Source of the DNA: Frigoribacterium sp. ACAM 257
GTDB lineage: Bacteria > Actinomycetota > Actinomycetes > Actinomycetales > Microbacteriaceae
Assembly: GCF_007954365.1 (NCBI RefSeq)
Contig: NZ_VOLO01000003.1
Location: forward strand, 1-64,000
Direction of reading: 5' to 3'
DNA: 64,000 bases
Both the position numbers and the translations under genes were made by a program. The notes beneath the pieces are model-generated. The model was given only the letters and a program-made list of their open reading frames with translations. It had not been told where the DNA came from and searched no databases. Within the stretch, counting starts at the first letter, position 1. Each line of letters opens with the position of its first letter. Shown here in pieces: positions 8,214-58,305 of this stretch.

Positions 8214-8277
8214 AAGCACCCCGTAGTGGACGATGCACCCCGTCGTTCCGGGGTGCATCGTCCACAACGGGGTGCTT
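8214..8277. repeat. 64-bp palindrome of the GCACCCC family, copy 1
   Basis: Two 28-base arms with one mismatch surround an 8-base loop. Each arm holds the word GCACCCC twice, 18 bases apart (outer and inner). The element sits between the convergent alpha-galactosidase and response-regulator genes, where it could act as a bidirectional terminator. The same sequence recurs at 9304-9367 and 12868-12931, and an architectural relative at 58246-58305. Confidence 0.9.
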
Positions 8278-8300: not shown

Positions 8301-9023
8301 TCAGCGCCAGCGGTACTCGTGCTCGGGCCGGCCCGGCGCGCCGTACCGGGGCACGCGGTCGACCTGGCCCGCGTCGGCGAGGTGCTCGAGGTAGCGACGG
8401 GCCGTGACGCGGGAGACCGCGACGGCCGTGGCGACCTCCCCGGCCGAGAGCGCGCCTCCTCGGCTCCGCAGCGCCTCGACCACGGCGGCGAGCGTCTCCG
8501 GCGCGATGCCCTTCGCGAGCGACGGGGTCGTCGCCGTCCGCAGCGTCGCCAGGCTCGCGTCGACCTCGGTCTGGGTGACCTGCCCCTCGCCCTGGTCGAG
8601 CCCGCGACGGAACGCGAGGTAGCCGGTCAGGCGCTCCGCGAAGGTCGCGAAGCCGAAGGGCTTGATCAGGTACTGCACGATCCCGAGCGACACCGCGCTC
8701 TTGACGACCGCGACGTCGCGCACCGCCGTGATCGCGACGACGTCGACGGTCGAGCCGGCAGCCCGCAGCGCCCGGCAGAGCTGGATCCCGTGGATGTCGG
8801 GCAGCGTGAGGTCGAGCAGCACGAGGTCCACGCCCGGCTGTCGCAGCCGGTCGAGGGCGGAGCGGCCGTCGTGCAGCACGCCGACCAGCTCGAAGCCGTC
8901 CAGCCGAGTGACGTACGCGCCGTGAGCCTCCGCCGTGAGCGGCTCGTCGTCGACGACGAGCACGCGCACCGGCCGCGGTGCCGGTGCCGGGCGCGGCGGC
9001 TGGGTCGAGGAGGCGCCGGTCAC
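8301..9023 (-). CDS. Response regulator, DctR/CitB type
   Basis: Output protein of the two-component system, 240 residues. The receiver domain has acidic residues Asp25/Asp26 and phospho-acceptor Asp71 in LLDLTLPD, and the conserved Lys is in LIKPFGF. The C-terminal third carries a winged-helix-like domain with the segment SAGEVATAVAVSRVTARRYL, as in CitB/DcuR/DctR regulators of carboxylate uptake. Its ATG overlaps the kinase stop codon. The neighbouring DctA symporter is the probable target. Confidence 0.9.
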   Translation of the reverse strand: MTGASSTQPPRPAPAPRPVRVLVVDDEPLTAEAHGAYVTRLDGFELVGVLHDGRSALDRLRQPGVDLVLLDLTLPDIHGIQLCRALRAAGSTVDVVAITAVRDVAVVKSAVSLGIVQYLIKPFGFATFAERLTGYLAFRRGLDQGEGQVTQTEVDASLATLRTATTPSLAKGIAPETLAAVVEALRSRGGALSAGEVATAVAVSRVTARRYLEHLADAGQVDRVPRYGAPGRPEHEYRWR

Positions 9024-10801
9024 GACCGCACCACCGCCTCCTCGTCGTCGGGCAGGTCGACGGTGATCGTGGTGCCGTGCTCAGTCGAGCGAGCGTCGAC
9101 GGTGCCGCCCGCCCGCCGCGCGACCTGGGCCACCAGAGCGAGGCCGATGCCGCGCCCCTCGGCGCCCCCGGGCTTGGTGCTGACGCCTCGGGTGAACACG
9201 TCCCGGCCCTCGGGCAGCCCGGGTCCGCTGTCGGAGACCGCGATCCGCACGACGCCGGCCGCGGGCCGGTCGAGCACGACGCTCACCGTCGCGCGTCGCT
9301 CCGGTGCACCCCGTTGTGGACGAAGCACCCCGTCGTTCCGGGGTTCATCGTCCACAACGGGGTTCATCGGGTGCTCGTGCTCGTGCCCGCGCTCCGGCCC
9401 CGCGTCCGCGACTTCCCCGCCCACGTCCGCCCACCGCGGCGCCGCCGCGTCGAGCGCGTTGTCCACGAGGTTGCCGATCACCGTCACGAAGTCCCGCACG
9501 GGCACCCGTGGCGTGCCGAAGTCGGGCGAGACGACCAGCTCGAGCTCGACGGCTCGCTCCCGCGCCTGGGCGCTCTTGCCGAGCAGGAGGGCCGCCAGCA
9601 CCGGCTCGTCGACGGCGGCCACGACCTGGTCGGCGAGGACCTGGCCGAGGTCCAGCTCGTCCGAGGCGAACCGGAGCGCCTCGTCGGCCCGACCCAGCTC
9701 GATCAGCGCCACGATCGTGTGCAGCCGGTTGGCGAACTCGTGGGTCTGGGAGCGCAGCGCCGCCGAGAGGGTGCTCATCGTGCGCAGCTCGTCGGTCAGC
9801 TGCCGCAGCTCGGTGTGGTCGCGCAGGGTGGTGACCGTCCCGAGGGGCCGACCCGCGCCTCCTGCACCGCCGCCCGCGCCGCGCCCGCTGCGGACCGACC
9901 CCGGCGCGGCCGCGACCCGCTGGTTCACGACGAGCACCCGGTCGTCGGCGACGTGCACCTCGTCCTGGGCCTCTCCGCCGCCGGCGAGCAGCGCGGCCAG
10001 CGACGCAGGCAGCGCGAGCTCCGCGACCGGCACCGGCCGCCGCGCCACGTCGTCGACGAGCGACGGCAGCCCGAGGAGGAGCGCCGCGTGGTCGTTCGCG
10101 AGCGTCAGCCGCCCCTGCTCGTCGACGAGCACGAGCCCCTCGCCGACCGAGTGCAGCACCGCCTCGTGGTGGTCGCTGACCCGGCCGAGCTCCTCGGCGC
10201 CGAGGCCGCGGGTCACCCGACGGAGGTGACGGCTGAGCAGCCACGCCGCCAGCGCCCCGAGGGCGACGGTCGCCAGCGCCCCGCCGACGAGCAGGGGGAG
10301 GCGCTGGCCGAGCGCCGCGGACACGCTGTCGACGGTCACGCCGGCCGCCACCAGGGCGACGACTGCGCCCTCGTCGTCGAGCACGGGCACGACGGCGCGG
10401 ACCGAGGGCCCGAGCGTGCCCGAGTACGTCTCCGTGAACGACCGCCCGGCGAGCGCGGGAGCGATCGTGCCGATGAACGGCCGGCCGATCTCGGCAGGGT
10501 CGGGGTGCGTGAGGCGGGTGCGGTCGGGCGTCATCACGGTGACGAAGTCGGTGTCGGTGTCGCGCATCAGGTCGAGCGCGTACGGCTCGAGCGACGCGGA
10601 CGGGTCGCTCGTCGCGAGCGCCTCGATCACGAACGGGTTGTCGGCGATCGAGGTCGCCAGGGCGGTGCAGCGAGCAGCTGCCGCTCGCTCGGTGTCGCTG
10701 CGCGCGCTCGTCCACTGCCACGCCCCGGCGGCGAGGGCGAGCACGACGACCCCGACGACCTGCAGGGCGAAGAGGCGGGTGGCGATGCTGGCGCGGCGCA
10801 T
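9020..10801 (-). CDS. Sensor histidine kinase, DcuS/CitA type, with palindrome-encoded insert
   Basis: Membrane sensor for extracytoplasmic carboxylates, 593 residues. An N-terminal helix (about residues 10-30), an extracytoplasmic Cache-like domain and a second helix near residue 190 precede a PAS region. The dimerisation motif SQTHEFANRLHT has phospho-acceptor His354. The ATPase domain has an N-box (GNLVDNALDAA), G1 (SDSGPGLPEG) and G2 (GRGIGLALV). Residues 479-499 are encoded entirely by a copy of the 64-bp palindrome. They lie between the N-box and G1, preceded by a Gly/Glu/His-rich stretch, so the loop is much longer than usual. It is followed by the overlapping response regulator. Confidence 0.9.
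   Translation of the reverse strand: MRRASIATRLFALQVVGVVVLALAAGAWQWTSARSDTERAAAARCTALATSIADNPFVIEALATSDPSASLEPYALDLMRDTDTDFVTVMTPDRTRLTHPDPAEIGRPFIGTIAPALAGRSFTETYSGTLGPSVRAVVPVLDDEGAVVALVAAGVTVDSVSAALGQRLPLLVGGALATVALGALAAWLLSRHLRRVTRGLGAEELGRVSDHHEAVLHSVGEGLVLVDEQGRLTLANDHAALLLGLPSLVDDVARRPVPVAELALPASLAALLAGGGEAQDEVHVADDRVLVVNQRVAAAPGSVRSGRGAGGGAGGAGRPLGTVTTLRDHTELRQLTDELRTMSTLSAALRSQTHEFANRLHTIVALIELGRADEALRFASDELDLGQVLADQVVAAVDEPVLAALLLGKSAQARERAVELELVVSPDFGTPRVPVRDFVTVIGNLVDNALDAAAPRWADVGGEVADAGPERGHEHEHPMNPVVDDEPRNDGVLRPQRGAPERRATVSVVLDRPAAGVVRIAVSDSGPGLPEGRDVFTRGVSTKPGGAEGRGIGLALVAQVARRAGGTVDARSTEHGTTITVDLPDDEEAVVRS
9304..9367. repeat. 64-bp palindrome of the GCACCCC family, copy 2, inside the kinase gene
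   Basis: Same element as 8214-8277 but with four arm mismatches, mostly G to T and C to A changes in the GCACCCC words. Read on the minus strand it contributes 21 codons to the kinase (MNPVVDDEPRNDGVLRPQRG and one more residue) without a stop. The intergenic copies are open in the same frame (HPVVDDAPRNDGVHRPLRGA). This resembles in-gene palindromic elements such as those of Rickettsia, but the sequence is unrelated as far as can be seen. Confidence 0.88.
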
Positions 10802-12867: not shown

Positions 12868-12931
12868 AAGCACCCCGTAGTGGACGATGCACCCCGCAAC
12901 GACGGGGTGCATCGTCCACTACGGGGTGCTC
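12868..12931. repeat. 64-bp palindrome of the GCACCCC family, copy 3
   Basis: Two 28-base arms that match at 27 positions, with the 8-base loop GCAACGAC. It lies 47 bases downstream of the DctA-type gene and is a plausible terminator. Arm sequences are virtually identical to copy 1, but the right arm has CTACG where copy 1 has CAACG, restoring pairing. Confidence 0.9.
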
Positions 12932-20941: not shown

Positions 20942-21050
20942 CTCTCCTCATTCAGGAACATCGGTCCTGCATCTCGCGGCGGGGGGACCGATGTTCCTGA
21001 GCCGTGCACGGTGCAGGAACGGCGTCGACGGACTTCCTGCATGCTGAATG
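20942..21050. repeat. TCAGGA/GTGCACG repeat, copy B, with terminator hairpin
   Basis: Starts with the shared boundary CTCCTCATTCAGGAAC. Perfect 16-base arms at 20952-20967 and 20985-21000 form a hairpin right after ppc, a likely terminator. A second near-palindrome centred on CCGTGCACGG follows (20994-21020). The middle of the first arm (ATCGG) differs from the other copies, and the opposite arm differs with it, so pairing is preserved. Confidence 0.8.
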
Positions 21051-29028: not shown

Positions 29029-29078
29029 GGAAAAGGGACGTCGCAGACGTGGGCCCACGCCTGCGACGTCCCTTTTCC
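29029..29078. terminator. Long near-perfect hairpin, probable bidirectional terminator
   Basis: 25-base arms (29029-29053, 29054-29078) pair with one mismatch and meet at GTGGGCCCAC. The outer ends are GGAAAAGGG and CCCTTTTCC, giving a T-run on both strands. It sits where the DUF418 pseudogene breaks off and before the convergent epimerase gene. Confidence 0.75.
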
Positions 29079-31717: not shown

Positions 31718-31812
31718 ATCCAGGATCGGGCTCCGCCGTTCTCCTGATCCGTGCACGGATCAGGACGCTGAATCCCCCCGCCGCGCAGCTCAGGCCCCGC
31801 CTTCCTGAATGG
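31718..31812. repeat. TCAGGA/GTGCACG repeat, copy C (inverted orientation)
   Basis: Contains a perfect 24-base palindrome at 31742-31765 whose centre is CCGTGCACGG and whose ends are TCCTGA/TCAGGA. The far edge reads CTTCCTGAATGGGGAGG, the inverse of the CCTCCTCATTCAGGAA boundary of the other copies. It lies between the convergent sulfurtransferase and DUF1508 genes, so termination is a possible role. Confidence 0.8.
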
Positions 31813-31834
31813 GGAGGGGCGGAGGAGGCGCGGG

Positions 31835-41798: not shown

Positions 41799-41868
41799 CG
41801 AGGGCGGGTGTTCCGGGTCGAGGGCGGGTCCCCGGCGACCCGCCCTCGACCCAGAACACCCGCCCTCG
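41799..41868. repeat. 70-bp palindrome with GAGGGCGGGT words
   Basis: Arms of 32 bases (41799-41830, 41837-41868) pair with one mismatch around the 6-base loop CCCGGC. Each arm contains CGAGGGCGGGT twice, 20 bases apart, the same double-word layout as the GCACCCC palindromes. A further partial copy (CCCAGAACACCCGGCCTCG) continues to about 41890. It lies between the tRNA terminator and the methyltransferase start. Confidence 0.85.
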
Positions 41869-56828: not shown

Positions 56829-56935
56829 CTCCTCATTCAGGAACCCGCGTCCTGATCCTCCACGGATCAGGACGCGGGTTCCTTCGTCGTGCACGGATCA
56901 GGAACTCGAGACGGGCTGTTCCTGAGTCGTGCGCG
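56829..56935. repeat. TCAGGA/GTGCACG repeat, copy D, with nrdF terminator
   Basis: Opens with the shared CTCCTCATTCAGGAAC boundary. Perfect 20-base arms at 56839-56858 and 56864-56883 flank TCCAC and form a probable nrdF terminator. The next segment has CGTGCACGGATCAGGAA and ends with TTCCTGAGTCGTGC. The arm centre (CCGCG) differs from copies A and B but the two arms still match each other. Confidence 0.85.
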
Positions 56936-58245: not shown

Positions 58246-58305
58246 GCACCCCCGAACCAGCAATGCACCCCCGGTTCTGCGGGTGTAGTGCTGGTTCGGG
58301 GGTGC
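58246..58305. repeat. GCACCCC-family palindrome, diverged copy
   Basis: Arms of 25 bases (58246-58270 and 58281-58305) pair with two mismatches around a 10-base loop. As in the 64-bp copies, GCACCC occurs at the outer and inner ends of the arm, here 19 bases apart, but the stretch between (CGAACCAGCAAT) is unrelated to theirs. It lies between convergent genes, like copy 1. Confidence 0.8.

Follow-up and report, generated by a model that had tools for sequence, protein, structure and literature searches.

The stretch analyzed here (the window) comprises 64,000 nucleotides, positions 1 to 64,000 of contig NZ_VOLO01000003.1 of a Frigoribacterium genome (sp. ACAM 257; NCBI RefSeq assembly GCF_007954365.1). 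It contains an intact histidine kinase gene that reads through a 60-bp palindrome. The host open reading frame encodes 593 amino acids with Pfam matches to sCache_3_2, PAS_8, SPOB_a, and HATPase_c, and resembles DcuS. The element covers about residues 479–499, between the N box (about 443–449) and the DxGxG box (524–528). The relevant features are as follows, with type letters designated in this study.

9306 to 9365, minus strand: in-gene 60-bp palindrome of type A, with 24 of 27 stem pairs; X boxes at 9306–9313, 9325–9332, 9339–9346, and 9358–9365, spacers at 9314–9324 and 9347–9357, and loop at 9333–9338; palindromy extends to 9301–9370.
9020 to 10801, minus strand: the 593-aa sCache/PAS/HATPase histidine kinase gene that reads through the element.
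8216 to 8275, no strand assigned: A-type palindrome between convergent genes.
12870 to 12929, no strand assigned: A-type palindrome (27 of 27 pairs) behind the dicarboxylate-symporter-like gene; the related genomes G012 and G015 have an A-type palindrome behind the same gene.
58246 to 58305, no strand assigned: palindrome of the same layout, type E (GCACCCCCG-AACCAGCAAT).
41799 to 41868, no strand assigned: 70-bp palindrome of a sister family (CGAGGGCGGGT repeated at 20-nt spacing).

The first-pass annotation had proposed that a mobile-looking palindrome, also present at two intergenic sites, is translated inside the kinase. This observation was confirmed. Folding of the 81-nt stretch as DNA gave −31.5 kcal/mol compared to a shuffled mean of −14.1 (z −7.4; 0 of 200 shuffles as good). 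The arm pattern with up to 3 mismatches has 6 matches in the window, where 0.01 are expected, and 22 forward and 24 reverse matches in the genome, with 0 in the reversed control, although a few of the 3-mismatch matches are single arms and probably due to chance. A blastn search found 23 places in the genome at E<=1e-6. The annotation had also noted that the intergenic copies are open in the same frame, as if the element were compatible with in-gene insertion. However, when the 23 catalogued elements of the window's own genome (G000; other G numbers denote other Frigoribacterium genomes) were read on both strands (46 readings), 42, 41, and 40 were open in the three frames (87–91%) compared to 67–73% for arm-shuffled palindromes. 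In 46 elements of G015 (92 readings), 52, 74, and 76 were open (57–83%) compared to 59–66%. Thus, the in-gene frame is not special, as most frames are open anyway.

Fourteen same-genus kinases, including that of the window, were aligned; G001 and G010 have only 38–39% relatives and were left out. In 11 of the 13 others, the segment is absent between the N box and the DxGxG box, and DNA was folded for three of these. In the two nearest orthologues, those of G012 (91%) and G015 (90%), a 60-bp palindrome sits at the same place within one codon and is also in frame, but it is of another sequence, GAACCGCG-TTCCGAACCAT-GAACCGCG (type B1) instead of the GTGGACGA type A of the window, with 38 and 37 of 54 arm positions equal. 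Both come from genomes with many such elements. The linker between the two motifs has 74 and 67 residues with the element and 24–59 in 17 other kinases of a 28-row alignment, in which 9 rows had no motif match and were not counted. In the predicted structure (28 sequences, mean pLDDT 75.9, pTM 0.38), residues 457–500 have pLDDT below 50 and no secondary structure, between helix 435–453 and strand 505–511. So the element is a tolerated, probably disordered insert. These results supported the interpretation of the first-pass annotation, although they are comparative and do not extend to translation in vivo or actual movement.

The elements share one anatomy in many sequence types, including A, B1, B2, D, E, F, and others. 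Thirty-three diverse members align without gaps as X8-s11-X8-loop6-X8'-s11'-X8' (a 27-6-27 layout), with ACC/GGT of the outer X boxes invariant, 91.9% of cells paired, and a covariation score of 0.517 compared to 0.145 when shuffled. The 19-nt internal repeat was found in 36 of 57 strong stems, compared to at most 4 at any other offset from 8 to 26, although the loci were partly preselected. G002 carries tandem and clustered arrays of the 19-nt unit GCACCGCG-N11 with CTAG-containing centers (loci L119:3200-3800, L120:6600-7400, and L121:7380-8200), and the palindromes may grow from or into such arrays. An excess of mirrored changes (20 compared to 4.4 expected) is weak evidence because the 20 pairs are not independent.

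In-frame copies were also found in two fused ABC ATPases. The first (585 aa in G015) carries a B1-like element in its interdomain linker in G015, G012, G010, and G001, a third type in G003, and none in G000 (545 aa). The G015 and G012 copies share the loop ACATGT and are most likely one inherited insertion, yet their spacers differ in both arms. The second fused ABC ATPase of G015 carries three elements in its linker, read in another frame. Its relative in the window's own genome (locus L013; 85% over 781 aligned positions, open frame of 826 aa) has linker segments at the same three places: a B1-like one, a decayed one of another type, and an A-type one. Of 171 distinct elements with flanks, few are in genes. 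A strict coding test passed 6 of 171 elements (three kinase copies, the first ABC ATPase of G001, and two in loci L128 and L136 judged spurious). A relaxed test gave 35 of 162 with the same best frame on both sides, of which only L279, L352, and two in L336 stay open, and it did not list the kinase copies.

Syntenic stretches of 400 kb of G000, G012, and G015 and 280 kb of G003, together with other loci, were compared for the type of palindrome at each address. Automatic labels contained false differences from small indels and nearby unrelated hairpins; the sites given here were read by hand. Six places were found where two of the three sister genomes G000, G012, and G015 carry palindromes of different types: the kinase; 105715 (A in G000 and G012, F in G015, with no gap at either junction, though the 10–15 nt to the left are poorly conserved); 8216 (A compared to an unrelated family in the syntenic spacer of G015); 58246 (E compared to an unrelated family, which G003 also has); L362/L323 (B1 compared to B2); and the second ABC linker (B2 compared to the decayed type). 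About a dozen other places keep the same type in at least two of these genomes, and several are empty in one genome, such as an A copy present only in G015 and a B1 copy present only in G012. Repeated independent insertion into tolerant spots is not excluded, but the matching positions at 105715 and in the kinase make replacement in place the simpler reading. In G015, only two of about 57 model places fall in contig C1, 1.03–2.22 Mb, as if copies avoid this 1.2-Mb part of the chromosome.

A RAYT partner (Pfam Y1_Tnp, PF01797) was found in 0 of 16 Frigoribacterium genomes, while the same search detected it in 5 of 14 control genomes. Instead, a search for genes enclosed by two elements yielded a 346-aa gene bracketed by same-type palindromes 1,214 bp apart in G012, G015, and G010. 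Pairs enclosing other genes (a response regulator in the window and a dehydrogenase in L358/L370) were judged incidental. The proteins of this family have 300–350 aa. Among 25 members, AbiEi models of PADLOC match 25 (E<=0.1), while Pfam gives AbiEi_4 in 19 (E<=1), in the N-terminal part of the 346-aa protein, AbiEi_1 in 4, and only scattered weak others. The C-terminal pattern E219...D251...E262-F-D-G265-xx-K268, with E219 and D251 invariant and E262 and K268 in at least 90% of 25, may represent a PD-(D/E)XK nuclease; this putative assignment rests on the pattern, as no Pfam nuclease family and no usable PDB match were found. The family has hits in 16 of 16 Frigoribacterium genomes and in 67 of 90 Microbacteriaceae genomes (62 of 84 genera).

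Thirty loci of this gene were cut out, of which a fragment (L434), a broken frame (L442), and a near-duplicate (L444) were left out, while another near-duplicate (L427 of L426) was kept. Of the 27 loci, 16 have palindromes on both sides, 14 of them matching at 70% or more, 6 on one side, and 5 on none. Among 828 predicted control genes of at least 700 bp, 6 have both, 1 matching, and 143 one side; the single matching control is a false plus-strand gene called in the kinase region. Of the two non-matching pairs, one (G003, L437) is spoiled by a long G/C tract and the other (G000, L433) is decayed. Long G/C homopolymer tracts in the G003 assembly (L060:15-80 and position 124857 of the reversed G003 stretch), one of them beside the A-type unit, are possibly sequencing artifacts. 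In the 27 loci, within searched windows of 200 and 130 bp, the upstream copies end 52–128 bp before the chosen start, and the downstream copies begin 5 bp inside to 55 bp beyond the stop, apart from one second hairpin at 86. In 20 short stretches around hits in other genera, accepting any palindrome in the roughly 350-bp flanks, 5 have both, 4 of them matching, 9 have one, several of these ordinary-looking hairpins, and 6 have none; Markov sequences of the same loci show any such palindrome in 4 of 200. Furthermore, palindrome and protein identities correlate (r 0.69, n 22). The correlation was r 0.76 (n 21) without L427 and the G/C tract, and r 0.71 over the 206 of 210 pairs below 75% protein identity, with 0 of 5000 permutations as good in both analyses.

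The A-type protein is intact in G003 (L437), with an A-type palindrome downstream. In G000, two A palindromes at C6:283744 and C6:284277 enclose residues 1–81 (78% identical) next to residues 310–330 (86%) of that protein, an internally deleted unit of the window genome's own palindrome type. A copies dominate the G000 catalogue (20 of 23), which is biased by how loci were fetched. The B1-coded peptide gives 35 rows (both strands counted) in G015 and 34 in G012, which have the intact B1 unit, but 3 in their sister G000, which lacks it. However, G010 with 24, G004 with 10, and G001 with 8 do not fit simply, as their best units are not B1 or not intact, and A-type copies persist in G015 (13 catalogued) although none of its five protein hits is an A-type relative.

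In 13 genomes, the best unit lies at one orthologous place beside a permease gene (flanks 84.7–100% identical in the pairs listed), with proteins 50–84% identical to that of G015. The flanks of G000 and G015 are 96% identical while the proteins are 51% identical, which is allele replacement. The unit is inverted at the same address in G010 and G003 (L429 and L431, compared to L421 of G015), and inversion is what symmetric flanks would allow.

Collectively, these results favor, with moderate confidence, the view that the kinase insert is a non-autonomous member of a dispersed palindromic element family whose complete form is a palindrome-gene-palindrome unit, in which the gene encodes an AbiEi-like DNA-binding region joined to a putative PD-(D/E)XK nuclease and protein variants go with their own palindrome sequences. 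It is inferred that the protein binds the repeated X boxes and cuts or nicks the palindrome (or its hairpin), and that repair copies the palindrome to new places or over older palindromes. Solitary palindromes would then accumulate, the gene could be gained, lost, inverted, or internally deleted between its two palindromes, and an occupied address could change type. Because the element is 60 nt (20 codons) and mostly free of stops, copies that fall in disordered linkers survive as in-frame inserts, as in this kinase. From the comparative data, however, no movement was observed and no clean target-site duplication was seen in the few flank alignments made. The fixed address of the best unit in 13 genomes fits a resident gene as well as a hopping one, and copies outside genes lie between convergent or co-directional genes, where terminators also lie.

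Other explanations appear unlikely. The protein may be a resident regulator and the palindromes its binding sites, at its own gene and elsewhere, which arise and are kept by selection without any transposition. The AbiEi-like region, the fixed address, and the tracking of the B1 unit by B1 copies among the three sister species are consistent with such operators. However, 60-bp copies inside the reading frames of three genes, presence/absence differences, and an internally deleted unit are mobile-DNA traits, and a palindrome just after the stop codon as well as before the start is odd for an operator. Slightly less likely still, the palindromes may be bidirectional transcription terminators or mRNA stabilizers, in which only the hairpin matters and sequence types drift or are exchanged, as suggested by the strong hairpins and by copies lying close behind genes or between convergent genes. 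The shared 60-nt layout with fixed X boxes, the in-gene copies, the type match with a flanking gene, and the placement upstream of that gene's start argue against this reading. Of 90 non-Watson-Crick cells, 18 are G-U, which is no clear excess as RNA selection would give, but this is weak evidence because the elements were picked by Watson-Crick pairing.

A defense or addiction role, in which the AbiEi-like nuclease is a toxin or anti-phage enzyme and the palindromes titrate it or mark self DNA, is similarly doubtful. The PADLOC matches and the strong allele turnover at one address with conserved flanks, as in an arms race, are in its favor, but it does not by itself explain the in-gene copies, although a partner toxin was not searched for. 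Native kinase sequence or a chance palindrome is refuted by the chance expectation, the absence from 11 of 13 other orthologues, and the dispersed copies, even though the linker is variable in length among kinases.

Compared to REP/REPIN elements with RAYT (TnpA-REP) transposases, the present family is similar in logic. In both, dispersed palindromes include a gene flanked by two of them and, for RAYT, obligately associated with them (PMC2817692), protein and palindrome sequences go together, solitary copies outnumber the gene, and the gene itself seems to stay put, RAYTs being single-copy and vertically inherited (PMC8049555). However, the defining transposase is absent, the partner is AbiEi-like plus PD-(D/E)XK-like, the element is 60 bp with a 19-nt internal repeat, and the 33 aligned cores, read by eye and without the flanks beyond, have ACC at columns 3–5 and GGT at 56–58 and no GTAG or CGTC at either end. 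Palindromes read in frame inside genes are already known from Rickettsia palindromic elements (RPE) and in-gene REPs, and different REPs at about the same site of recB have been noted in two Xanthomonas species (PMC3733652). The present elements occur in a different phylum than RPE, and a candidate partner gene is present. Short non-autonomous copies plus an internally deleted unit also resemble MITEs, although no clean target-site duplication was seen in the few flank alignments made. Compared to the AbiEi antitoxins of type IV toxin-antitoxin systems, which share the DNA-binding region, the present proteins have an extra C-terminal nuclease-like region and are flanked by their own dispersed palindromes. 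Homing endonucleases may offer a further parallel, as nuclease genes that could spread by cutting a site lacking them, but the present gene is not in an intron or intein and its flanking palindromes also occur alone.

How palindromes without a RAYT spread is left open for CGTC-type REPs and RPEs (PMC3733652). Here, a candidate partner of a wholly different kind is tied to the palindromes by position, against a control, and by covariation. No AbiEi- or DUF559-type proteins tied to palindromes were found in limited searches of an open-access library. It is possible, though tentative, that the units represent a new class of mobile DNA, a palindrome-homing nuclease, in which an AbiEi-type domain reads the doubled X boxes of its own palindrome, a PD-(D/E)XK domain cuts palindromes or their hairpins, and repair writes the resident type over others and into new sites, even inside reading frames, so that each lineage's dispersed palindromes and its nuclease allele turn over together, widely in Microbacteriaceae. 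Such a system would also explain how bacteria gain in-frame linker inserts of about 20 residues and would provide a protein-DNA recognition pair that changes quickly and visibly.

Three further palindrome families were found in the window, at 29029–29078 (AAGGGAC), 41799–41868 (the sister family with CGAGGGCGGGT at 20-nt spacing), and 56839–56883 (CCTGATCC). Some have copies elsewhere in the syntenic stretches, and they may have partner proteins of their own. In addition, a partly palindromic repeat family starting CTCATTCAGGAAC, with a nearby GTGCACG motif, occurs at 24–98, 20944–21018, 31742–31830, and 56829–56903 of the window.
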